A stretch of 14,783 nt of DNA, from contig DENA01000016.1 of assembly GCA_002359465.1 (NCBI GenBank), positions 28,875 to 43,657 of the forward strand, written 5' to 3'. The notes beneath the pieces are model-generated. The model had not been told where the DNA came from, did no database searches, and was given only the letters and a program-made list of their open reading frames with translations. Both the position numbers and the translations under genes were made by a program. How positions within the stretch are numbered: position 1 is the stretch's first letter; the number at the start of each line of letters is the position of its first letter. Source of the stretch: Ruminococcaceae bacterium UBA2656. GTDB taxonomy: Bacteria; Bacillota; Clostridia; Oscillospirales; Acutalibacteraceae. Positions 2,334-14,333 of this stretch are shown here, piece by piece.

Positions 2334-2341
2334 ACTTAATA

Positions 2342-2524
2342 AGCGGAAACGGCAGCTGATTTTGCAGATTCCTGCAAAGGGGCGGCGAGTCGCTGTCCCT
2401 GAAAGAGTAACAGGCACCGCGCGGCGCGCGTAGAAAACAAGCCTCGCCGTGTAACCATACATTTTATGTATTCAAAACACGGCTGCGTTTGTATTCTAAA
2501 GGAAATTTTTGTGCCGTTTCCGCT
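2342..2524 (+). ncRNA. Retron msr-msd non-coding RNA
   Basis: This RNA is the primer and template for the adjacent retron reverse transcriptase. Its ends are a perfect 13-bp inverted repeat: a1 at 2342-2354 (AGCGGAAACGGCA) and a2 at 2512-2524 (TGCCGTTTCCGCT). The G at 2355, inside AGC (2354-2356) right after a1, is the expected branch guanosine. The msr part has hairpin 1, TTTGCAG/CTGCAAA (2361-2367/2372-2378), with a 4-nt loop. Hairpin 2 (2379-2387/2391-2399) is nine pairs, two of them G-T, with a 3-nt loop. A short GC-only hairpin (2418-2422/2426-2430) follows. The msd part is a long hairpin, 2431-2452 with 2477-2498, broken by a 1x1 mismatch and a 3x3 internal loop and capped by ATACAT/ATGTAT (2457-2462/2466-2471). 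The cDNA would be templated roughly from 2510 back to about 2405. Exact msr/msd ends are inferred. Confidence 0.85.
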
Positions 2525-2526
2525 CA

Positions 2527-2614
2527 TTATAGCAATTCCAGTGGGATGAATTTCGTTATCTCCCCCGCCTTGGGCGGGGGAGATAACACCAGTTCACATT
2601 TGAAATTGCTGTAA
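2527..2614 (+). repeat. 88-nt palindromic stem-loop between retron ncRNA and RT
   Basis: The core is a perfect 15-bp stem, GTTATCTCCCCCGCC (2555-2569) with GGCGGGGGAGATAAC (2573-2587), and a 3-nt loop. Outer arms TTATAGCAATTCCA (2527-2540) and TGAAATTGCTGTAA (2601-2614) pair over 14 positions with one wobble and one mismatch. There are about 13-14 unpaired bases on each side between arms and core. No T-tract follows, so it is not a canonical intrinsic terminator. It could be a REP/MITE-like insertion, an attenuator that sets the ncRNA-to-RT ratio, or a barrier protecting the 3' end of the ncRNA, which ends 2 nt upstream. Confidence 0.8.
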
Positions 2615-2641
2615 ACAACGTATATTGCAAGAGGAAATGAT

Positions 2642-3661
2642 ATGATTCATACCCTTGAGGATTTTTGTACGTACCTGTACCGTAATAAAGACGAACGGAG
2701 ACGCAACCGGTGTTACTATCAGCTGGTGCGCTTTTCCCGGAACCAATACCGCAAAAGCTGTTACACCCTGCGGAGCCTGCCCAAAAAGGGCGGCGGCGTC
2801 CGGTTGATCTGCGAGCCGATTCAGCCGCTGAAACGCATCCAGCGCGGTATTCTCCCGTTGCTTTCCGGTGGGGAGTCTGTGTATGCCACCGCCTACGCCG
2901 AGGGCAGATCTGTGCTGGATAACGCATTGCCCCATGTGAGACATCCCCTCGTCGTGAAACTGGATATCCGCGATTTTTTCGGCAGCGTTACTTTCCCGCA
3001 GGTATTCCGCGCGATTGATAAAGCGTTGGAAGCCTCGCCGCTGACGGGCCGCCATTATCTGAATGCGGACGACCGCGCCTGTGTGGAAAATAAAAATTAT
3101 AACAGCGTCCTCAGCTTTTACTTTGCAAGGTTCTGCACGCTTGGCGGAACGCTGCCCCAGGGAGCGCCGACAAGCCCCTTGCTTTCCAATCTGGTCTTTG
3201 CCCCCATCGATGCAATCATCGGGGAATACTGCAAAAAGCGGCGTGTCGCTTATACGCGCTACAGCGACGACATGACCTTTTCCGGTTCATTCAATCCCCT
3301 GTCCCTCATCGATTTTGTGCGGCACATCCTGTTCATCAACGGTTTCGAGCTCAATGATGAAAAAACAAAGATTCTTGGGCGCGGCGTCCGGCAGACGGTC
3401 ACCGGCGCGGCGGTAAACGAAACCCTTCAGGCGACCCGGGAATACCGCGGAAAAATTCGGCAGGAGATGCACTACATCCGGAAATACGGTCTGGCCGGAC
3501 ATCTTGAGCGAGTGAAAACAAGGACAGAACCGGAGAAATATCGAAACCAGCTTCTCGGGCGTATTGGTTTTGTCCTGCAGCTTTCCCCCGGGAATACGGA
3601 ATTTCAGCGATATAAAAAGTGGCTCTCCGAAAACGGGCAGGAGGGCTCGCATGACAAATAA
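2642..3661 (+). CDS. Retron-type reverse transcriptase
   Basis: The ATG at 2642 follows AAGAGG (2629-2634). The 339-residue enzyme should convert the upstream msr-msd RNA into branched RNA-linked DNA. Visible motifs in order are: the retron NAxxH signature (N94-A-L-P-H98), motif A VKLDIRDFFGSV with catalytic D108, LPQGAPTSPLLSNL (171-184), motif C YSDD (207-210, catalytic D209/D210) where most retrons have YADD, and the retron VTG signature at 253-255. The C-terminal thumb region holds YRNQLLGRIGFVLQLSPGN (300-318). Length matches stand-alone retron RTs, and there is no fused effector domain or maturase/endonuclease, which argues against a group II intron. The next gene runs in the opposite direction and its stop lies 13 nt away. 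No accessory effector is recognised, so function (phage defence is known for many retrons) is inferred from the family only. Confidence 0.95.
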   Translation: MIHTLEDFCTYLYRNKDERRRNRCYYQLVRFSRNQYRKSCYTLRSLPKKGGGVRLICEPIQPLKRIQRGILPLLSGGESVYATAYAEGRSVLDNALPHVRHPLVVKLDIRDFFGSVTFPQVFRAIDKALEASPLTGRHYLNADDRACVENKNYNSVLSFYFARFCTLGGTLPQGAPTSPLLSNLVFAPIDAIIGEYCKKRRVAYTRYSDDMTFSGSFNPLSLIDFVRHILFINGFELNDEKTKILGRGVRQTVTGAAVNETLQATREYRGKIRQEMHYIRKYGLAGHLERVKTRTEPEKYRNQLLGRIGFVLQLSPGNTEFQRYKKWLSENGQEGSHDK

Positions 3662-4744: not shown

Positions 4745-5110
4745 ATGAATCCATATACACCGGATATTGATAAATGCGACTGTACCGTCATCCATGAAGA
4801 TATTGTCAGTGATGTCCGCCAGCATATGCCTGATGAAGAAAACCTTCTGGATCTTGCGGATTTGTTCAAGGTTTTCGGCGATTCCACCAGAGTAAAAATT
4901 CTGTGCGCTTTATTTAAATCAGAGATGTGCGTCTGCGATATTGCCGCTCTTCTTGGGATGACAAAATCAGCTATTTCCCACCAGCTTCGTGTATTAAAAC
5001 AGGCAAAGCTGATAAAAAACCGCAGGGACGGTAAAGTGGTCTACTATTCCCTTGACGACGAACATGTAAAAAACATATTTGATCAGGGTCTGGCACATGT
5101 ATCCGAATAA
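4745..5110 (+). CDS. cadC: CadC-type ArsR-family metal sensor/repressor
   Basis: The ATG at 4745 follows AAAGGAGG (4729-4736). The 121-residue winged-helix repressor controls its own operon and releases DNA on binding Cd, Pb or Zn. The alpha3N metal site is visible as C62-V-C64 in the EMCVCD box, together with N-terminal C11 and C13. The alpha5 site is D105-x-H107 ... H118-x-x-E121. The positions of C62, C64, D105, H107, H118 and E121 are each offset by four from staphylococcal CadC C58, C60, D101, H103, H114 and E117, as recalled from the literature. The only shift is the second N-terminal Cys (C13 where C15 would be expected). The recognition helix is MTKSAISHQLRVLKQ (72-86). Palindromes lie both upstream and downstream of the gene, and the target pump follows 65 nt later. 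Confidence 0.92.
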   Translation: MNPYTPDIDKCDCTVIHEDIVSDVRQHMPDEENLLDLADLFKVFGDSTRVKILCALFKSEMCVCDIAALLGMTKSAISHQLRVLKQAKLIKNRRDGKVVYYSLDDEHVKNIFDQGLAHVSE

Positions 5111-5123
5111 TTTTTTTGCTCTA

Positions 5124-5147
5124 TTAGTTGATTGATTGTTCAACTAA
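5124..5147 (+). promoter_or_regulatory. Second CadC-like operator O2, upstream of cadA
   Basis: TTAGTTGA (5124-5131) and TCAACTAA (5140-5147) are perfect 8-bp inverted repeats around an 8-nt centre. They share AGTTGA/TCAACT half-sites with O1, but the centre is 8 nt instead of 16. The site lies in the 65-nt gap between sensor and pump, just before the pump's ribosome binding site. No clear separate promoter was seen here. Confidence 0.6.
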
Positions 5148-5175
5148 TCACTTCTGAATAAGGAAAGGCCGGGAT

Positions 5176-7524
5176 ATGATGGCAACTATTAGAAAGCAGT
5201 ATGAACTGGAGGGCCTATGCTGCGGCAACTGTGCGGCAAAAATAGAAAAGGAAGTCGGCGGTTTAAACGGTGTATTGGGTGCAAACGTCGATTTCGCTTC
5301 AAAATTGTTAACCGTGGAACTGGCTGAGCAGGCCATACCGGAAAATATAGCCGATCAGGCGAGGAAAATTTCGAAAAGGCATGATTCCGATATCGAGTTA
5401 AAAGAAAAGGAACTGCCGCAGGCGGGTAAAAGGGTAATGTATCTGCTGGGGCTTGACTGTGCCGACTGCGCAAAAAGGATTGAAACAGCGGTAAGCCGCA
5501 TGGACGGCATCCAGTCGGCAAGCATTGATTTTGCGACACAGAAGCTTACGATCGAAGTCTCTGACAAAGGAAGCCTTGCGGTCCTTGCGAGGCAGGCTGC
5601 CCAGATGATTAAGGAAATGGAACCGGACGTCGAAATCTCCTATACCGGTAAAGCTGCCCAAGAAACGCCGGACGCCATAAAAAAGCACAGACTGCGGCAA
5701 ATCGGGTTGATAACCGGCGCCGTTCTCTTTGTCATCGGCATGGTGTCTCCATTTTCTCAACCGGTAGAATTTGTTCTGTTTTTGATCAGCTATTTGCTGG
5801 TTGGCGGCGAAGTGGTGCTGAGGGCGGTGAAAAACATTGCAAAAGGGCAGGTTTTTGACGAGAATTTTCTGATGAGCGTCGCCACAGTGGGCGCGTTTGC
5901 AATCGGAGATTTTGCCGAGGGCGTCGCGGTCATGCTGTTTTATCAGGTGGGCGAATTTTTTCAGAATCGCGCGGTCAACCGTTCCCGTAAATCCATCTCC
6001 GCGCTGATGGACATCCGTCCGGATTATGCGAATTTAAAAATCGGCGGCGAGGTTAAAAAAGTATCTCCGGAAGAAGTCGGAATCGGCGATTTGATTCTCA
6101 TCCGCCCCGGCGAGAGGGTACCGCTGGACGGCAGGGTTATCGAGGGAACCTCTTCCGTCGATACCGCCGCTCTGACCGGGGAATCCCTTCCGCGCGATGC
6201 AGAACCGGGAACAGAGCTTTTGTCCGGTTCCGTCAACAAAAACGGACTTTTAACAGTGGAAGTAACCAGGGAATTCGGCGAGTCAACCGTTACGAAAATA
6301 CTGGATCTGGTCCAGAACGCGAGCAGCCAGAAAGCGCCCACTGAAAATTTCATTACCAAATTTGCAAGATATTACACCCCTGTCGTCGTATTTGCGGCGC
6401 TTGCTCTTGCCGTAATTCCGCCTCTGGTTATTCCCGGCGCATCCTTTACCCAATGGATTAACCGCGCGCTGACATTTTTGGTTGTTTCCTGCCCCTGTGC
6501 GCTGGTCATCTCCATTCCGCTCAGCTTTTTCGGCGGGATTGGGGGCGCTTCCAAAAAGGGGATTCTGGTCAAGGGAAGCAACTATCTGGAAGCACTCAAC
6601 AATGTGGACACTGTCGTTTTCGACAAAACCGGCACGCTTACCAAGGGCAGTTTCAAGGTCACGCAAATCAACGCCTCGAAGGGATGGACACAGGACGAGA
6701 TTCTGAGTTACGCCGCGCATGCCGAATTATATTCCAGCCACCCCATTGCCGCTTCCATCCGCGAAGCCTACGGCAGAGAACCGGACGCGGCGCAGGTTGC
6801 CGACTATGAAGAAATCTCAGGAAAAGGCGTACGGGTAAAGGTGAACGGCAAAACCGTACTTGCAGGAAACGGAAAGCTCATGGAAGCCGAAAAAATCGAA
6901 TGGCAGGCTCCCTCCAAAACCGGAACCGTTGTTTACCTTGCCGTTGACGGAGCCTTTGCCGGATCGGTTGTTATTTCGGATGAAATAAAACCGGACAGCA
7001 AACTGGCAATCCAAAGCCTGAAAGCCATCGGAGTCCGAAACACCGTAATGCTGACCGGCGACAGCAGGGCAGCCGGTGAAGGCGTGGCAAAAGAGCTTGG
7101 ACTTGACGCCGTCTACACCGAACTTCTTCCACAGCAGAAGGTGGAACAAATGGAAGCTCTGAGCAATCAGGTCGCCAAGGGCGGAAAGCTGGTCTTTATC
7201 GGTGACGGCATTAACGACGCGCCGGTTCTGGCTCGCGCTGACGTCGGTGTAGCCATGGGCGGGCTTGGCTCCGACGCGGCGATTGAAGCTGCCGACGTTG
7301 TTCTGATGACGGATGAACCCTCCAAACTCGTGGCGGCAATCCGCATAGCAAAAAAGACCAGGTCCATTGTCTGGCAGAATATTCTCTTCGCGCTTGGCGT
7401 AAAAATCGTCATACTGGTTCTGGCGGCTTTCGGAATTGCCACCATGTGGGCGGCGGTTTTCGGAGACGTCGGCGTTACGATTATCGCAGTTTTAAACGCC
7501 ATAAGGGCAACCCGCACAAAATAA
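5176..7524 (+). CDS. cadA: P1B-type Cd/Zn/Pb-translocating ATPase
   Basis: ATG at 5176 (a second ATG follows at 5179) lies behind AAGGAAAGG (5160-5168). The 782-residue membrane pump exports divalent soft metals using ATP. It has two N-terminal heavy-metal-associated domains, with metal Cys pairs C16-G-N-C19 and C95-A-D-C98. These are followed by an actuator T334-G-E-S337, the membrane motif C439-P-C441, the phosphorylated D483 in DKTGT, H522-P523 of the nucleotide domain and GDGINDAP at 676-683. In the last membrane helices K743 and D764 (GDVGVT) match the conserved Lys and Asp of the ZntA/CadA (P1B-2) group, which separates it from copper pumps. The gene directly follows cadC and its palindrome, so it should be induced by the same metals. 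The exact preference among Zn, Cd and Pb cannot be read from sequence. Confidence 0.95.
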   Translation: MMATIRKQYELEGLCCGNCAAKIEKEVGGLNGVLGANVDFASKLLTVELAEQAIPENIADQARKISKRHDSDIELKEKELPQAGKRVMYLLGLDCADCAKRIETAVSRMDGIQSASIDFATQKLTIEVSDKGSLAVLARQAAQMIKEMEPDVEISYTGKAAQETPDAIKKHRLRQIGLITGAVLFVIGMVSPFSQPVEFVLFLISYLLVGGEVVLRAVKNIAKGQVFDENFLMSVATVGAFAIGDFAEGVAVMLFYQVGEFFQNRAVNRSRKSISALMDIRPDYANLKIGGEVKKVSPEEVGIGDLILIRPGERVPLDGRVIEGTSSVDTAALTGESLPRDAEPGTELLSGSVNKNGLLTVEVTREFGESTVTKILDLVQNASSQKAPTENFITKFARYYTPVVVFAALALAVIPPLVIPGASFTQWINRALTFLVVSCPCALVISIPLSFFGGIGGASKKGILVKGSNYLEALNNVDTVVFDKTGTLTKGSFKVTQINASKGWTQDEILSYAAHAELYSSHPIAASIREAYGREPDAAQVADYEEISGKGVRVKVNGKTVLAGNGKLMEAEKIEWQAPSKTGTVVYLAVDGAFAGSVVISDEIKPDSKLAIQSLKAIGVRNTVMLTGDSRAAGEGVAKELGLDAVYTELLPQQKVEQMEALSNQVAKGGKLVFIGDGINDAPVLARADVGVAMGGLGSDAAIEAADVVLMTDEPSKLVAAIRIAKKTRSIVWQNILFALGVKIVILVLAAFGIATMWAAVFGDVGVTIIAVLNAIRATRTK

Positions 7525-7566: not shown

Positions 7567-7604
7567 GTGTACGCGGCAATGAATTGATTCATTGCCGCGT
7601 ACAC
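7567..7604 (+). other. Perfect 18-bp inverted repeat between cadA and the sugar operon
   Basis: Bases 7567-7584 and 7587-7604 are exact reverse complements around TG. The stem begins GTGTACGCGGCAATG. No T-tract directly follows; the nearest, at about 7623-7629, is 18 nt away. It lies 42 nt after the cadA stop, so termination is the likeliest role, but an insertion-derived repeat or protein-binding palindrome is possible. Confidence 0.6.
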
Positions 7605-7646
7605 ACTGTTATATACATAATATTTTTTTAAATCTTCTTAAATATA

Positions 7647-7674
7647 TTGACTTTGTAAAAAAACCGGCTATAAT
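7647..7674 (+). promoter_or_regulatory. Sigma-A promoter of the sugar operon
   Basis: TTGACT at 7647-7652, a 16-nt spacer and TATAAT at 7669-7674 form a strong promoter 44 nt before the ROK regulator start. No other promoter of this quality was seen within the operon. Confidence 0.8.
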
Positions 7675-7676
7675 AG

Positions 7677-7693
7677 TTTATATAGTTAATAAA
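7677..7693 (+). promoter_or_regulatory. Candidate ROK-repressor operator
   Basis: TTTAT (7677-7681) and ATAAA (7689-7693) form an AT-rich inverted repeat with a 7-nt centre, overlapping the expected transcription start. The arms are short and the region is AT-rich, so support is weak. Autoregulation by the adjacent ROK gene is inferred. Confidence 0.3.
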
Positions 7694-7717
7694 GTAAGTG
7701 TCGTGGGAAGGATTGTC

Positions 7718-8752
7718 ATGGAAAAAATCAGCGGGAACCCGGCGATCATAAAAAAAGTCAATAAAGATCTGATCAAGGAAACACTTAAAAAATTTCCGAA
7801 GAGCACCAAGCCACAGCTTGCGCAAAAGGTGGGACTCAGCCTTGCTACGGTAAACAAGGCGGTGGAAGAACTGGAGGAAAGCGGCGAAGCGCGCTGTCTG
7901 GGTTACATCGATTCGACCGGAGGACGCCGCGCCAAGTGTTACAAGCTCAATGAAAATTTCGAGCTGATTCTCACAGTATTCATACAGGCCGGGCATTATT
8001 ACTGCGCCGTATTAAATATGGATGGGAAAATTATATCCAGTAAGGTGCATCAGCATCAGGAGGGAAGCTGGACGCAGGAGCTTTACGGCGTGATCGATGA
8101 AGGGCTTGCCGGCTGCGACGGCGAGAAGGTCGCTTCGATCGGCGTGGCGGTACCCAGCTCGGTGAACGGCGATGAAATCAGCAATATTCCTACCATTCCC
8201 CAATGGGAGGGTTTTGCGCTGAAAGCGGATCTGGAAAATCGCTATGGGATGACGGTCGTGGTGGAAAATGATATCAACGCCGCGACATTGGGAGTACATA
8301 ATAAATACACGGCGACCGGCGCCAGAAACATGCTTTTCCTCCATATTAAGCAGGGCATCGGCGCAGGGGTGATTATCAACAGCAGGCTGCATAAGGGACG
8401 GCACAATTTCGCGGGTGAACTTGCCTATATGAGTCTGGCTTCCGGCGCAAACGGAGAAACGCTGGAGGATACCCTTCACAGACTGCATCATGACCGGGGG
8501 GCCGTCATCAAACTGGTGGCGGAACTTATCGCAAATGTTGTCTGTGTCATTGAACCGGATTTAGTCGCAATCGATACCTGCTATCTTTCCGAAGAGGATG
8601 CCGGAATGCTGAAGCAAGTCCTTTCAGGGTATATTTCATCTGAATATCTTCCTCAAATTTTTATTCGTCCGGTACAGGATTTGATTTACATCCGCGGCCT
8701 TTTCGTGCTTTGCATGCATAAAACACAAAATTCGGTTGAACTATATCAGTAA
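7718..8752 (+). CDS. ROK-family transcriptional repressor (NagC/XylR type)
   Basis: The ATG at 7718 follows GGGAAGGA (7705-7712); the open frame extends upstream but lacks any other signal. The 344-residue protein has an N-terminal winged helix (about residues 10-75, recognition segment SLATVNKAVEELEESG, wing STGGRRAK) and a C-terminal ROK sugar-binding domain. The latter shows GVAVPSSVNG (142-151), VVENDINAA (181-189), GIGAG (213-217) and GELAYM (233-238). The CxCGxxGC zinc motif of most ROK proteins is absent, and the usual GExGH His is Tyr. It is first in the sugar operon, 15 nt before the next gene, and probably represses the operon until the imported sugar or its derivative binds. The inducer cannot be named. 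Confidence 0.88.
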   Translation: MEKISGNPAIIKKVNKDLIKETLKKFPKSTKPQLAQKVGLSLATVNKAVEELEESGEARCLGYIDSTGGRRAKCYKLNENFELILTVFIQAGHYYCAVLNMDGKIISSKVHQHQEGSWTQELYGVIDEGLAGCDGEKVASIGVAVPSSVNGDEISNIPTIPQWEGFALKADLENRYGMTVVVENDINAATLGVHNKYTATGARNMLFLHIKQGIGAGVIINSRLHKGRHNFAGELAYMSLASGANGETLEDTLHRLHHDRGAVIKLVAELIANVVCVIEPDLVAIDTCYLSEEDAGMLKQVLSGYISSEYLPQIFIRPVQDLIYIRGLFVLCMHKTQNSVELYQ

Positions 8753-8767
8753 TAAGGTGGGATATAC

Positions 8768-9904
8768 ATGAAATACCTTGTGCAGGCATTTACCGGCGGG
8801 TTTCATGCGCGGTGCGTAACGGCAGATCAGTTGATGGAGCGTACCCGATATGTGGATGACCTGCTGGACGTGGAAGGCGTGATTCTCGGCTGGAGCGGCG
8901 ACCGGAATCTGTATCGACCGGTGCTGAACGAGCTTCACCGCCGCGGAAAGCAAGGCTACCTGTGGCTGCCCGTGTTTTCGGAGGTTTCCGGTGTGGCGGA
9001 CAGCGCGCCGGCCGTTGATTACAATGGAAAACCCCATGCCTCCGCCGAGATCATGAAAGGGGAAGATTTTACCTTTGTCTGTCCGTCCAATCCCGTTAAC
9101 ATAGAGAACATTTTTAAAATCTATCAGGAAAAGTTTGACGGGTTGGGTTTTGACGGTGTTTTCCTTGATAAAATCCGATATTCCTCCTTTGGAAACGGTT
9201 TTGCGCCGGCCATAGGCTGCTTCTGTGAAAGCTGCCGCGCCCGGTATGAAAGGGCGGGTGTCGATTTGTCTGAATTAAGAGAGCGGATGACCCGTCCGGA
9301 TAAATCTTTTCTGCTTCCCTATGAAACGCAAAACGGAAGGTATTTTTTTGCGGATATCTTTATAAATAAATTATATAAAGTAAGAACTGAAATTATTTCC
9401 GACGCGGTGGCAAAGCTGGCGGGGTATTTTCACAAACAGGGTATGCGGGTCGGTCTGGACGTCTACGCGCCGCTGTTCAGTTACTTTGTGGGTCAGGACA
9501 TTGAGTCGCTTTCCCGCAGCGCTGATTTCATCAAGCCGATGATTTATCGGGTTACCGACGCCCCGGCGGGTATCCCTTACGAAGCGGCAAGCATGGAACA
9601 GCAGCTCCGTCTTAATGGCTGCGAGTCATCGGGTGTTTTGGAGCGGCTTTGGGGCACGAACGACTTGTGCTCCGCCGAGTCTCTGATACATCAGCTCAAA
9701 ACGCTGGCCGGCGTACACTGCCCGATTTACACGGGATTTGAAGTCAATTCGAAACCGGATATCTGCCGTACCAATCCGGATTATATCCGCCAAACGGTGG
9801 TAGCGCTGCATTCGGCGGGCGCCGGTCAGGCGGTGCTTTCATGGGATATCCTTTCGGATACGCGTGACCATCTTGAATTGCTGGCGGAACAAGGAGGACA
9901 ATGA
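8768..9904 (+). CDS. TIM-barrel glycoside-hydrolase-like protein, specificity unknown
   Basis: The ATG at 8768 follows AAGGTGG (8754-8760). The 378-residue protein has no signal peptide, so it should be cytosolic. The spacing of short hydrophobic strands suggests a (beta/alpha)8 barrel of the glycosidase kind: GFDGVFLDKIRY (127-138), VGLDVYAP (228-235), FIKPMIYR (254-261), IYTGFEVN (320-327) and AVLSWD (355-360). Acidic residues at strand ends (D134, D231, E325, D360) are candidate catalytic or sugar-binding groups. A Cys cluster, C151-F-C153-E-S-C156, follows strand four and could hold a metal. I do not recognise a numbered GH family. It overlaps the ABC ATPase start by 4 nt (ATGA), so the two are translationally coupled, which points to action on the sugar imported by that transporter. 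Confidence 0.7.
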   Translation: MKYLVQAFTGGFHARCVTADQLMERTRYVDDLLDVEGVILGWSGDRNLYRPVLNELHRRGKQGYLWLPVFSEVSGVADSAPAVDYNGKPHASAEIMKGEDFTFVCPSNPVNIENIFKIYQEKFDGLGFDGVFLDKIRYSSFGNGFAPAIGCFCESCRARYERAGVDLSELRERMTRPDKSFLLPYETQNGRYFFADIFINKLYKVRTEIISDAVAKLAGYFHKQGMRVGLDVYAPLFSYFVGQDIESLSRSADFIKPMIYRVTDAPAGIPYEAASMEQQLRLNGCESSGVLERLWGTNDLCSAESLIHQLKTLAGVHCPIYTGFEVNSKPDICRTNPDYIRQTVVALHSAGAGQAVLSWDILSDTRDHLELLAEQGGQ

Positions 9905-11424
9905 ATGTGAATAAGCTTCTATCTCTTAAACAGATCTGCAAAAGCTTCGGCCCGGTAGAGGTCCTTAAAAACGTTGATTTCTCGTTGGAACGCGGAGAGG
10001 TCCGCGCTTTGCTGGGGGCGAACGGCGCCGGAAAATCCACGCTGATCAAAATTATCGGCGGCGTCATTTCACAAAGCTCCGGTGAAATCGAGCTGAACGG
10101 ACAGCCGGCCGCCATCGTCTCCCCCATCGACGCCCGGCGAAAGGGCATCAGCATTATTCATCAGGAGCTGAGCGTTATTCCTCAGCTTACCGTCCTGGAA
10201 AATTTCTTTCTCGGGCGGGAAATGACCAAAAACGGCGTGCTTGATAAGAAGGGCATGATTCGGCGCTATAACGAAATTTGCACCGAAATGGGCTTTGACA
10301 TCCCGTGGCGCAAAAGAGTGCGCGAGCTGAGCATTGCCAAACGGCAGATGGTTGAAATCATGAAGGCGGTCTCCTGCGATTCCGAACTGATTATTATGGA
10401 TGAACCGACCACATCCCTTACGGAACATGAAAAACACAACCTGTTTAAAATTATCCGCGATTTGAAGACAAAAAATAAAACGGTCGTATATATCTCCCAT
10501 ATGCTGGAGGAAGTCTTTGAGGTGTGCGACAACGTGACGGTCATGCTCGGCGGCGAGATTGTTGGGAATTACCCGATCGGAGAACTGAATGAACACCGGA
10601 TCGCCGAGCTGATGGCGGGTGAAACACTTGCCGTGGGGCACGAAAAACGCGTCAGTCACGCGGATTACAGCAAAGGGCCTGTACTGGAAGTAAGGAGCCT
10701 TACGCATGAAGGAAAATTCAAGGATGTGAGTTTTGACCTTTATCCGGGTGAGATACTGGGGTTTGCAGGTCTGGTCGGCGCCGGACGCAGTGAGATTGTC
10801 CGCTCGATATTCGGGGCCGACCCGTACACAGGAGGCGAGATTTTGCTGGACGGCAAACCGCGTGCCGTCCACTCGCCCGCCGACGCCATCAAAAACGGAA
10901 TCGGCCTGATTCCGGAGGACCGCAAAACACAGGGTCTGGTTTTAAAGCAGGAAATTTATAAGAATGCGACGATTCTCAGCCTGGACGCCATGAAGAAAAA
11001 ACATATGCTGAATAAAAAGAAGGAGCTGGACTACACCGCAAGGGCTGTGGACCAGCTGACGATTAAGGTTTCGGACCTGCAGAACCGTGTACAGAGTCTT
11101 TCCGGCGGCAATCAGCAAAAAATTGTTGTGGCCAAATGGCTCGGCAAGAAGTTACGCGTCCTGATTTTTGATGAACCGACAAAGGGCATTGATGTGCGCG
11201 CAAAAGAAGACATCTTTGCCACCGCGGAGCAGTTTGCCGACAAAGGGGTCGCGGTAATCTTTATCTCTTCCGATTTGGAAGAGGTGCTGCGGGTTTCCGA
11301 CCGGATTGTGATGATACACAACGGCAAGCTCGTAAAAATCCGCAATAACGAAGAGCTTACGGTGGCCGACCTGATGAACGATATTCTGGTAAAGCAGCCT
11401 TTAAAAGATGGAGGGGCAAAATAA
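9901..11424 (+). CDS. CUT2-type sugar ABC importer, double ATPase subunit (RbsA/MglA family)
   Basis: The ATG at 9901 overlaps the preceding stop; AAGGAGG lies just upstream. The 507-residue protein carries two fused nucleotide-binding domains that power sugar import from the cytoplasmic face. Domain one has Walker A GANGAGKST (39-47), Q88, a non-canonical signature LSIAKRQ (143-149), Walker B with D167-E168 and switch H200. Domain two has a degenerate Walker A, GAGRSE (293-298, Arg for Lys), the canonical signature LSGGNQQ (400-406) and D424-E425. This one-good-one-degenerate arrangement is normal for RbsA/MglA proteins. The stop overlaps the permease ATG by 1 nt (TAATG). Substrate is not readable from this subunit. 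Confidence 0.95.
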   Translation: MNVNKLLSLKQICKSFGPVEVLKNVDFSLERGEVRALLGANGAGKSTLIKIIGGVISQSSGEIELNGQPAAIVSPIDARRKGISIIHQELSVIPQLTVLENFFLGREMTKNGVLDKKGMIRRYNEICTEMGFDIPWRKRVRELSIAKRQMVEIMKAVSCDSELIIMDEPTTSLTEHEKHNLFKIIRDLKTKNKTVVYISHMLEEVFEVCDNVTVMLGGEIVGNYPIGELNEHRIAELMAGETLAVGHEKRVSHADYSKGPVLEVRSLTHEGKFKDVSFDLYPGEILGFAGLVGAGRSEIVRSIFGADPYTGGEILLDGKPRAVHSPADAIKNGIGLIPEDRKTQGLVLKQEIYKNATILSLDAMKKKHMLNKKKELDYTARAVDQLTIKVSDLQNRVQSLSGGNQQKIVVAKWLGKKLRVLIFDEPTKGIDVRAKEDIFATAEQFADKGVAVIFISSDLEEVLRVSDRIVMIHNGKLVKIRNNEELTVADLMNDILVKQPLKDGGAK

Positions 11425-12377
11425 TGGGTAAACTGGGTATAAAACATTTGAAATTAAGCGAATACGGTGTGCTGATTGGCTTTGCGGTGCTCTGTATCGC
11501 GGTAGGAATCGCAGCGCCTACCTTTTTGGGCACACGCAATATATTGAATCTGCTCAGGCAGTCATCCATCATCGGAATCATCGCCGTAGGCATGACCAGC
11601 GTCATTATCTCGGGAAATTTCGATATTTCCGTGGGCGCAATCGCCGCCATATCCGGCGCGGTTGTGATGAAGCTTCTGGGGAATTCCGTGCCTCTGCCGG
11701 CCGTACTGCTTGCCGGAATCGCACTGGGTCTGGTTATCGGCACCTGCAACGGCGTTGTCGTCGCCAAGTTCGGCGTTCCTTCCCTGATTGCGACCATGGG
11801 CATGACCACCATACTCAACGGCGCGGTCCTGATGGTCACCGGGGGTTATCCCATTTCAGGCAAATACGATTTGTTTGATTACATAGGCAACGGATACATT
11901 TTAAAAATCCCCATTCCGGTTATTATTTTTGCGTTCGCTGTTGCCGTCATGTTTTTCATACTGCGCAGTACAAAGTTCGGCAGGTACATCTATTCGGTGG
12001 GCGGCAATGAGGAGTCCAGCCGCCTCTCCGGCATCAAGCCCGACCGCATCAAAATCATGGTGTTTGCGGTCAGCGGCATGCTTTCGGCACTGGCGGGAAT
12101 CGTCCTTACCTCCCGTCTTGGCACCGCAACGCCGGTCGCCGGCAGCGGTTACGATATGGACGCCATCGCCTCGGTAGTAATCGGCGGCACCAGCGTCCTC
12201 GGGGGTGAAGGCAGCGTCCTGAAAACAGTCATCGGTGTACTGTTCATGAGCGTAATCAACAATGCGTTCAACCTGTTGGGCGTAGACGTTTATTTCCAGT
12301 ACATCGTCAAGGGGCTGATTATTATCGTCGCGGTCGGCGCGGACAGTTACAGCCGAAAAAAAGCGATGCGCGCCTGA
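11424..12377 (+). CDS. CUT2-type sugar ABC importer, permease subunit (RbsC family)
   Basis: The ATG at 11424 shares one base with the ATPase stop, and GGAGG lies at 11410-11414. The 317-residue protein is almost wholly hydrophobic, with about eight to ten membrane spans. It shows the family hallmarks FDISVGAIAAISGAVVM (about 68-84) and VVIGGTSVLGGEGS (251-264), the latter forming the coupling loop region of RbsC-like permeases. One permease gene implies a homodimer. Close sequence resemblance is to ribose/xylose/galactose transporters as a group; no single sugar can be assigned. The substrate-binding protein follows after 53 nt. Confidence 0.94.
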   Translation: MGKLGIKHLKLSEYGVLIGFAVLCIAVGIAAPTFLGTRNILNLLRQSSIIGIIAVGMTSVIISGNFDISVGAIAAISGAVVMKLLGNSVPLPAVLLAGIALGLVIGTCNGVVVAKFGVPSLIATMGMTTILNGAVLMVTGGYPISGKYDLFDYIGNGYILKIPIPVIIFAFAVAVMFFILRSTKFGRYIYSVGGNEESSRLSGIKPDRIKIMVFAVSGMLSALAGIVLTSRLGTATPVAGSGYDMDAIASVVIGGTSVLGGEGSVLKTVIGVLFMSVINNAFNLLGVDVYFQYIVKGLIIIVAVGADSYSRKKAMRA

Positions 12378-12386
12378 TTTGTAACT

Positions 12387-12400
12387 ACAGCAAAAGCTGT
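12387..12400 (+). other. Small hairpin between permease and binding-protein genes
   Basis: ACAGC (12387-12391) and GCTGT (12396-12400) pair around AAAA, 10 nt after the permease stop. It may stabilise the downstream mRNA so that the binding protein is made in excess, as is common in such operons. It is short and could be chance. Confidence 0.3.
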
Positions 12401-12430
12401 TGCAAATAAAAAATTAATGGAGGAATTGAA

Positions 12431-13456
12431 ATGAAAAAGCTAACCAGATTAACCAGTCTCGCGCTTGCCCTGATAATGGCCTGTTCCATGGCCGCATGCT
12501 CAAAGGATGAATCAGGGGTCCAGTCCAAAGCCAAGGAGTCCGCGCCTGCCGCATCCGCCGAAGCGGCGTCGGTAAAGGCGGACGGCAAACAGAAAACAAT
12601 TGCGGTTCTTCTGCCCGGTTCCACCGGATACTTTGTGGCAACCAAGGCCGGTATGGACAAAGCCGCCAAGGAGAACAATCTGAAACTGGAATATTCTGAC
12701 GCCCAGTGGGATGCGACCAAGCAGCTTTCCCAGGTGGAGGACGCCATAACCAAGGGTGTTGATTTAATCGCTGTCTGTGCCGCCGACGCCGACGCAATTA
12801 AACCGGCAATTAAATCCGCAAACAACGCGGGCATCCCGATTCTCGCGTTCACCAACGCCATCGGCGACGACCCGACCGGCAAATATGAAGGACTTGTTTC
12901 CTACGTCGGGCAGAGCGAAGTGACCACCGGCGCTCTGTGCGCGAAGATTGCGAAAGGCCTGCTGGGTTCCAAAGGCGGCAACATTGTTTTGATTGAAGGC
13001 AGACCGGGCACCTATCCTCAGCGGTATCGCCGCAAGGGCTTCACGGATGCCATCAAGGACACCCCGAACATGAAGGTCGTTTATACCCAGACAAGCAACT
13101 GGGAAAAGGAAGAAGCCCTGAAAATCACGGAAGACCTCATTCAGAAGGGCACCAAGTTTGACCTGATCTTCGCGCAGGACGACAACTCAGCGATCGGCGC
13201 CGGCAAAGCCCTTCAGGAGGCGGGCATGAAGGACAAAGTAAAAGTGATCGGTTTAGGCGGCAGCATCGACGGTTTGCAGGCTCTTAAAGACGGCGTGATC
13301 GACGCAACGACCTTCATGTCGGCAGAGGAAGAAGGCAAGCTGGCAATCGAGACCGCAAGCAAATCCCTGAACGGTGAAAAGGTAGAGGCCGTAACAGAAT
13401 TAAAGCAGGTGGAAGTAAATGGTGAAAACGTTGGCACCTTCAAAGGCGAATGGTGA
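12431..13456 (+). CDS. Sugar-binding lipoprotein of the ABC importer (RbsB-like)
   Basis: The ATG at 12431 follows GGAGGAA (12419-12425). The 341-residue protein starts with a lipoprotein signal (KK, hydrophobic core, lipobox MAAC with C23) and a flexible Ser/Ala/Lys linker to about residue 55. It then has a type I periplasmic-binding fold (Peripla_BP_4), beginning IAVLLPGSTGYFVATKAGMD and including IEGRPGTYPQRYRRKGF and AQDDNSAIGAGKALQEAG. It captures the sugar outside the cell and delivers it to the permease. The lipid anchor fits a Gram-positive host. Aromatic and charged residues typical of pyranose pockets are present (F64, W118-like positions not certain), so the ligand is left open. 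The 3' end overlaps the kinase gene if the upstream kinase start is used. Confidence 0.93.
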   Translation: MKKLTRLTSLALALIMACSMAACSKDESGVQSKAKESAPAASAEAASVKADGKQKTIAVLLPGSTGYFVATKAGMDKAAKENNLKLEYSDAQWDATKQLSQVEDAITKGVDLIAVCAADADAIKPAIKSANNAGIPILAFTNAIGDDPTGKYEGLVSYVGQSEVTTGALCAKIAKGLLGSKGGNIVLIEGRPGTYPQRYRRKGFTDAIKDTPNMKVVYTQTSNWEKEEALKITEDLIQKGTKFDLIFAQDDNSAIGAGKALQEAGMKDKVKVIGLGGSIDGLQALKDGVIDATTFMSAEEEGKLAIETASKSLNGEKVEAVTELKQVEVNGENVGTFKGEW

Positions 13457-14333
13457 TTTGAAAGTTTATTTAGGAATCGATATCGGCGGCAGTATGGTCA
13501 AATGGGGATTGATCCGTTCGGACGGCGTCATCCTTGAAAGCGGGCTCACAGCCACAGAACCGGAACGCGGACAGCAGTGCTTTCTGCAGAAGCTGCTGGA
13601 ACTGATTACACAGGCAATGGGTCGCGGCATCACGGGTGTCGGCATCAGCACAGCGGGCATTGTTGATTCGAACAGCGGCACAATCATAGACGGTATTCAA
13701 AACATCCCGTTTTTAAAAAATCTCAATTTAAAAACATTTCTGGAACAAAAGACCGGCTTACCGGTTCGTGTCCTTAACGATGTGCGCGCGGCGGCTCTGG
13801 GAGAAAAATGGATAGGCGCCGGGCAGGACTGCGATACTTTTTTCTGTATGACCATAGGCACCGGTATTGGCGGATGCCTGATGATAAACTCTAAAATCTT
13901 CGAAGGTACACATTTTCGCGCAGGTGAAATCGGGTATTTGGACTATAAGAATGAAAATCAGTTTTTTGAAAAACGTTCGTCCGCCAGAGGGCTGCTTGAA
14001 GCTGCAAAAGAAGACCTTGGAGAAGAAATTTCAAGCGGAGCGTTTTTTGAACGGGTGCGGCAGAACGATCAGCAGGTTTGCAGCATATTCAGCCATTGGG
14101 TCGGACAAATCGGCAGGGCGCTTGCAACAGTGGTCATTTTATTCGACCCGCAGATGATCATTGTTGGCGGCGGCATCACGGAGCAGGGAAGCTTACTGCT
14201 GAACGCCATCCGCGAAAAGACCGCACAATGCCTGCCCGCCGGATTTGCCGTTCAGTGCCCGATTGAGCTTGCGGCCTGTAAAAACGACGCCGGTATGGTG
14301 GGCGCCGTAAAGTTTTTAATGGATTCCATATAA
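13419..14333 (+). CDS. ROK-family sugar kinase
   Basis: Two starts are possible. ATG 13419 has AGGTGG upstream but lies 38 nt inside the binding-protein gene. TTG 13458, 1 nt after that gene's stop, gives an N-terminus MKVYLGIDIGGS typical of ROK kinases, with a weak AAAGG. In 13419 numbering the 304-residue protein shows the phosphate loop DIGGS (21-25), GVGISTAGIVDS (73-84), the catalytic base D111 in LNDVRAA, GTGIGG (137-142) and GE at 159-160. The zinc motif CxCGxxGC is absent and the usual sugar-binding His of ExGH is Tyr (E160-I-G-Y163), so this is not a standard glucokinase. Zinc-less ROK kinases include some acting on beta-glucosides. It is the last operon gene and would trap the imported sugar as a phosphate. 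Confidence 0.88.
   Translation: MVKTLAPSKANGDLKVYLGIDIGGSMVKWGLIRSDGVILESGLTATEPERGQQCFLQKLLELITQAMGRGITGVGISTAGIVDSNSGTIIDGIQNIPFLKNLNLKTFLEQKTGLPVRVLNDVRAAALGEKWIGAGQDCDTFFCMTIGTGIGGCLMINSKIFEGTHFRAGEIGYLDYKNENQFFEKRSSARGLLEAAKEDLGEEISSGAFFERVRQNDQQVCSIFSHWVGQIGRALATVVILFDPQMIIVGGGITEQGSLLLNAIREKTAQCLPAGFAVQCPIELAACKNDAGMVGAVKFLMDSI

Follow-up and report, generated by a model that had tools for sequence, protein, structure and literature searches.

A probably solitary and functional chromosomal retron from a clostridial bacterium, with likely kin among Ec107-like and type III-A retrons

Retrons studied to date usually combine a reverse transcriptase (RT), a non-coding RNA (ncRNA) and an effector, as described in PMC12548924 and PMC8989520. 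Two described kinds stand closest to the subject of this report, a retron at positions 2337 to 3661 of a 14,783-nt stretch of DNA (the window) from Ruminococcaceae bacterium UBA2656 (assembly GCA_002359465.1, contig DENA01000016.1). Type III-A retrons carry genes for a phosphoribosyltransferase (PRTase) and a winged-helix protein in addition to ncRNA and RT, a composition given by PMC12548924 together with the PADLOC model names. Ec107-like retrons (PADLOC model RT_Ec107-like) are represented by retron-Eco5, for which PMC6868368 describes a catalytic motif other than YADD, namely YCDD, and an intergenic location where no mobile element is apparent. Some retrons without a clear proximal effector are mentioned in a review (PMC8867640), and two were isolated in 2025 according to PMC12548924. 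The latter source also describes Retron-Sda1 from Sphingobacterium, whose III-A1-like RT comes with HipA-like and DUF3037 genes instead of PRTase and winged helix, and Retron-Bth1 from Bacillus, which has no apparent effector and lies on an extrachromosomal element that bears two RT genes; their likeness to the window retron lies in the III-A1-like RT of the former and the effector-less state of the latter. Solitary retrons of Clostridia were not found in our literature search; papers on retron classification and census may well include the clade described here.

That the locus is a real retron is, by sequence and structure, close to certain. Its best explanation, which we hold with good confidence on sequence grounds, is a solitary (effector-less) chromosomal retron, most likely functional and with likely kin among both the Ec107-like and the type III-A retrons. 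The RT belongs to the retron lineage and bears region X (NAxxH), the YxDD motif and region Y (VTG); the ncRNA is bounded by inverted repeats a1 and a2, with a predicted branch guanosine at the end of a1; and the msr hairpins and a foldable msd are kept by compensatory changes. An effector adjoining the RT or fused to it, the third part of a tripartite defence retron, was sought among known or shared families within 3-3.5 kb and not found. The first-pass annotation had called the locus a complete retron, and each feature that it named is present at the position it gave; the retron itself stands, while a tripartite defence retron is not established. The best extent of the retron is 2337 to 3661, with a likely -10 element ahead of it at 2325 to 2333: the annotated interval opened on the 13-bp core of a1 (2342), but the paired arm starts 5 nt further upstream.

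The RT gene (2642 to 3661, plus strand) is intact and encodes 339 amino acids with the motifs NALPH, YSDD and VTG; no fused domain was seen. The best PADLOC RT model is RT_III-A (327.8 bits), followed by RT_Ec107-like (306.2 bits), and retron RTs fill the top 14 places when structures are ranked against the RT model. An effector in the form of a fused RT domain was considered and rejected, since the 339-aa model aligns with retron RTs over nearly its whole length. Kinship with the Ec107-like retrons is likely by profile, the RT tree having no row for Eco5 itself (from E. coli). For L053, a solitary relative at greater distance, RT_Ec107-like is the best model (423.7 bits), and YCDD occurs in most of the wider clostridial relatives, whereas the clade of the window RT has YSDD, a distinct N-terminus (MxHTLEDFC in the majority of close members) and a separate place in the tree. 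This tree (midpoint root) uses 27 of 120 listed protein matches, 5446 having passed the search threshold, and omits L033 (same genome as L064), L012 and L013 (weak) and L052 (broken frame). The window RT falls inside a supported clade (100/99).

The YSDD motif is found in 58 of the 60 best protein matches and in each of the 29 rows that make up the clade of the window RT. It also occurs in five of the 39 rows outside (P0094, P0075, P0083, L061 and L113), so that YSDD by itself is not diagnostic of the group, and it was set aside as a clean clade marker; of the earlier suggestion that YSDD may denote a little-studied group, the uniformity within the clade survives and the exclusivity does not. 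Two related RTs are of separate note. P0110 (480 aa) of a neighbouring subclade bears a C-terminal GNAT acetyltransferase domain, possibly a fused effector. At locus L061 (G031 C26) the RT is matched twice within a few kb; the first match is short and has an inner stop, the second is an open reading frame (ORF) of 532 aa whose C-terminal extension has no Pfam match.

The RT is single-copy in its own genome, where the contig measures 204 kb. Among ten other genomes of the genus, two hold an RT of 65% identity and one a distant RT (25%); the RT of genome G002 is very near a public protein of Caproiciproducens sp. R2, which makes Caproiciproducens the probable genus of the host. Relatives occur in 30 of 398 family genomes (E up to 1e-20), in 7 of 394 order genomes (E up to 1e-45) and, with clade member P0065 as query, in 12 of 391 class genomes, the own genome included each time. 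A further scan of genome contigs added two loci with RTs of 40% and 41% identity.

The ncRNA (2337 to 2529, plus strand, as are all parts below) is strongly structured: its folding energy of -86.2 kcal/mol compares with a shuffle mean of -57.8 (standard deviation 4.3), corresponding to a z-score of -6.65, and 0 of 200 shuffles were as low. Rfam gave 0 matches inside it at E up to 1. The arms a1 (2337 to 2354) and a2 (2512 to 2529) pair over 18 nt at 94% with one mismatch, and include a perfect 13-bp core (2342 to 2354 with 2512 to 2524). Flush with a1 lies AGC (2354 to 2356) with the predicted branch guanosine G2355, whose 2'-OH would be the primer. A G directly follows the a1 helix in 27 of 32 loci, a count that owes something to the automatic arm search itself, in which AG was required near the arm end; in the MAFFT sequence alignments A1 and A2 the branch G of the window stands in another column than that of distant loci. 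Then follow msr hairpin 1 (2361 to 2378, TTTGCAG/CTGCAAA, from the fold; helix 2 of the covariation analysis), msr hairpin 2 (2378 to 2400, conserved core GCGAGTCGC, loop AGT), a GC-only hairpin 3 (2418 to 2430, from the fold) and a long msd hairpin (2431 to 2498) with a 3x3 internal loop and an ATACAT/ATGTAT cap at 2457 to 2471. The long hairpin is the predicted template of the DNA strand, and the msd would span about 2405 to 2511, its predicted template start being TTTTG (2507 to 2511) just inside a2. The GC-only third hairpin of the first-pass annotation is present, but no other helix is conserved so weakly, 75% of its cells being paired. Just upstream of a1 lies an extended -10 promoter-like element, TGCTACATT (2325 to 2333). 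The pattern TGnTAnAnT begins 14 to 17 nt ahead of the a1 core in all eight close loci and occurs within 40 nt before a1 in 16 of the 30 loci examined for it, as against 2.5% of mononucleotide shuffles; a generic promoter scan did not report the element at 2325 to 2333.

Seven close relatives have the same ncRNA upstream of the RT, each with its own a1/a2. Across the eight homologous ncRNAs 87% of cells pair, a value that falls to 32-49% when the partner is slid along the alignment, and 20 of 48 pairs change on both sides, a number that none of 500 column shuffles reaches (12.4 expected, standard deviation 2.0). Four of five covariation measures lie above all 500 shuffles in this alignment; the count of further pair types is unremarkable, being reached by 103 of 500. 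The a1/a2 helix and the msd stem covary across homologous loci, and the compensatory changes that had been named beforehand as a check on the retron proposal are present.

A wider survey of ncRNA patterns comprised 44 loci and five plasmid outgroup loci. It includes 29 of the 30 family-genome carriers; G215 (a fragment), L003 and the weak relatives L012-L014 lie outside it. The automatic a1/a2 search chose wrong arms in several of the 44 loci, among them L046, L047, L050 and L053. Pair types were counted in 32 of the 44, omitting the near-duplicates L047 and L049, the type III-A locus L062, L002, L132 and L133, and six loci with ambiguous or interrupted arms (L054, L056, L065, L091, L128, L141). 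As the arms were chosen for complementarity, the pairing percentage in these 32 loci is circular and the variety of pair types alone counts: positions 5 to 9 of a1/a2 show three or four Watson-Crick pair types. In a cross-pairing control (19 loci, then 16), foreign a1/a2 combinations pair over a mean of 5.0 bp versus 9.75 bp for own arms (Watson-Crick, 16 loci), or 7.6 versus 11.1 bp with G-U pairs. The GAGTCG core of msr hairpin 2 is present by pattern in 41 of 44 loci, with exact GCGAGTCGC in 35, and in 0 of the 5 plasmid outgroup loci. Of the three misses, L133 and L002 are variants and L132 lies at a contig end with 156 nt of upstream sequence. In 19 aligned sequences GAGTCG never varies, nor does the G-T step where a2 begins (G2511, T2512), and T2510 is kept in at least 90%.

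Beside the retron and its relatives, no effector of a known or shared family was found within 3-3.5 kb, and we strongly suspect that a dedicated neighbouring effector is absent. By blastp, 352 ORFs (at least 50 aa, within 3.5 kb) of 49 loci were clustered. The PRTase cluster was recovered by this same clustering and consists of exactly L062, L109, L110 and L111. No other broadly shared neighbour family emerged from the 49 loci among the 14 clusters listed: the largest (7 loci) contains big repeat-rich proteins, with four of its loci being species of one genus at one shared site, and is followed by an ABC-ATPase-like cluster (4 loci, by membership) and by clusters of three or two loci. When 122 and 134 neighbour ORFs were scanned with profiles (25 of 35 and 25 of 29 families listed), PRTase_III-A and WH_III-A appeared at L062 alone. 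The PRTase model PDLC02931 matches one of the 398 family genomes, that of L062, compared with 30 of 398 for RT homologues; it matches 0 of 14 control genomes and has no match in the own genome (about 86% complete). A small ORF between ncRNA and RT was rejected as effector, since the gap from a2 to the RT measures 26-36 nt in six of seven other close loci and leaves no room there (81 nt in L051). This missing effector gene, which the first-pass annotation did not mention, is the main point of interest. A role in phage defence cannot simply be carried over to a retron beside which, as beside its relatives, no effector was found.

Most studied retrons have been read as guards of an adjoining toxin gene. 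The locus could still be an ordinary retron of this type, with its effector elsewhere in the chromosome and its particle restraining that toxin in trans. We regard this as a possible, if somewhat doubtful, alternative. It would agree with the usual three-part make-up (PMC12548924, PMC8989520) and with an RT conserved without a neighbour, but no candidate emerged, PDLC02931 being unmatched in the own genome. Effectors acting in trans are, moreover, unusual among defence systems.

For the solitary retron itself, the sequence suggests a course of events. Pairing of a1 with a2 places G2355 beside TTTTG at 2507-2511. Transcription would start near a1 from the extended -10 element; following established retron biochemistry, the RT would bind the msr hairpins, prime from the 2'-OH of G2355 and copy the msd from about 2511 back to about 2405, whereupon RNase H1 would remove the template and leave a branched RNA-DNA bound to the RT. 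Multicopy single-stranded DNA (msDNA) is thus predicted, and very probably made. The least certain step is that the particle may act without a co-encoded toxin, on a chromosomal trans partner or alone in the role of sensor or decoy, possibly as a defence against phages; between a trans partner and partner-free action we see an even balance. We tentatively propose that Clostridia harbor a widespread lineage of effector-less retrons, which here falls under 13 family labels, has the GAGTCG msr hairpin in common and shows signs of purifying selection. Rather than serving as antitoxin to a toxin encoded alongside, its RT-msDNA particle would work alone or together with a core protein of the chromosome. 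An RT and ncRNA kept without a toxin gene would make the purpose of msDNA directly testable, because any phenotype must stem from the particle or a trans partner. For editing in anaerobes, such clostridial RTs could also provide the msDNA.

Ongoing decay of a former type III-A retron, after loss of the PRTase and winged-helix genes, appears improbable. RT_III-A is the top RT score and type III-A loci (L062, L109-L111) are among the relatives, L062 of the same family sharing the GAGTCG hairpin. Nevertheless, the absence is clade-wide, as the family-genome counts for RT and PRTase model indicate, and the RT is intact. In the tree, the solitary groups exclude the four RTs that come with a PRTase, all of them YADD, although support for the separating fork is weak (41/87, midpoint root). 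Since neither PRTase nor winged helix was found when looked for, we do not file the retron as type III-A, from which its YSDD also sets it apart. In the compared relatives the retron looks kept up and not in decay: in two close species pairs the RT has ratios of nonsynonymous to synonymous substitution rates (dN/dS) of 0.136 and 0.209, indicating purifying selection, with 0.11 and 0.046 for a neighbouring gene, and the ncRNA is 95% and 94% identical versus 88% and 87% for the upstream flank. Locus L062 (G285 C56) itself is a type III-A retron with PRTase, winged helix, a1/a2 of 24-26 nt, the GAGTCG hairpin and a YADD RT.

Several points weigh against a solitary, maintained retron. PADLOC detects described effectors only, ORFs of at least 1200 aa were excluded from its scans, and of its several PRTase_III-A models one was run against genomes. 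Partners that differ from locus to locus escape blastp clustering, and some loci are cut by contig ends. Among the 134 neighbour ORFs one matches HTH_VI, an accessory of type VI retrons (1.4e-9), and one ATPase-Toprim_I-B (9.1e-7), both weakly. Foreign a1/a2 combinations pair at least as long as own arms in 25 of 240 cases (Watson-Crick) or 36 of 240 (with G-U). Finally, the selection estimates cover two close species pairs only, the neighbouring gene of the second being far more constrained than the RT, and in L048/L049 the flank downstream, at 91% identity, comes near the ncRNA at 94%.

A selfish element spreading by itself among intergenic sites is a further reading, and a very improbable one. 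The site varies between species, and the flanking genes recur in relatives without the retron (the upstream DUF2935 gene in three, the downstream metallophosphoesterase gene in two); as they are also absent from other retron loci, these genes were rejected as partners. In G002 the retron lies between DeoR-like and HPr-like genes (by appearance), and G003 holds a diguanylate-cyclase-like gene at that site. The GC content of the RT gene (54%) exceeds that of both flanking genes (43-45%). Such mobility is countered by the single copy in the own genome, by a site common to four species of one genus (L048, L049, L050, L052), and by the failure to notice an integrase-like gene beside the retron or to find a clean empty site among the relatives examined; terminal repeats were sought within 2300-2700 of the window. 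Viral contigs gave 0 matches with the window RT, and a viral origin was rejected since none of the best 80 of 122 viral relatives exceeds 37% identity. Matches in phages and plasmids reach about 34% at best, all below 60% (best 20 of 54 phage and 20 of 148 plasmid records). Near position 8000 of L046, G010 carries about 21.6 kb inserted right behind the RT stop codon, relative to G002.

A solitary RT with an ncRNA is also the layout of some defence-associated reverse transcriptases (DRTs), but a DRT or other non-retron RT system with hairpins arisen by chance is hardly credible, as the weak Drt2 and Drt3a matches (43.1 and 35.6 bits) compare with 164.8 bits for the retron St85 RT, all three below curated cut-offs, and as the structural ranking, a1/a2, AGC, NAxxH, VTG and covariation all speak for a retron.

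Between ncRNA and RT lies a copy of a dispersed palindromic repeat (2539 to 2614, plus strand, core GTTATCTCCCCCGCC/GGCGGGGGAGATAAC), with 68 matches in the own genome, a count in which many palindromes appear in both readings; five relatives of the genus have weaker matches. The strong hairpin at 2555-2587, which the first-pass annotation passed over, was accordingly rejected as a retron part and assigned to this repeat. Elsewhere, the window encodes an ArsR/SmtB-type regulator followed by a heavy-metal P-type ATPase with two HMA domains (4745-7524), a ROK-family gene (7592-8752), and genes of a sugar ABC transporter (ATPase, permease and binding protein by appearance) followed by another, ROK-like gene (9901-14333).
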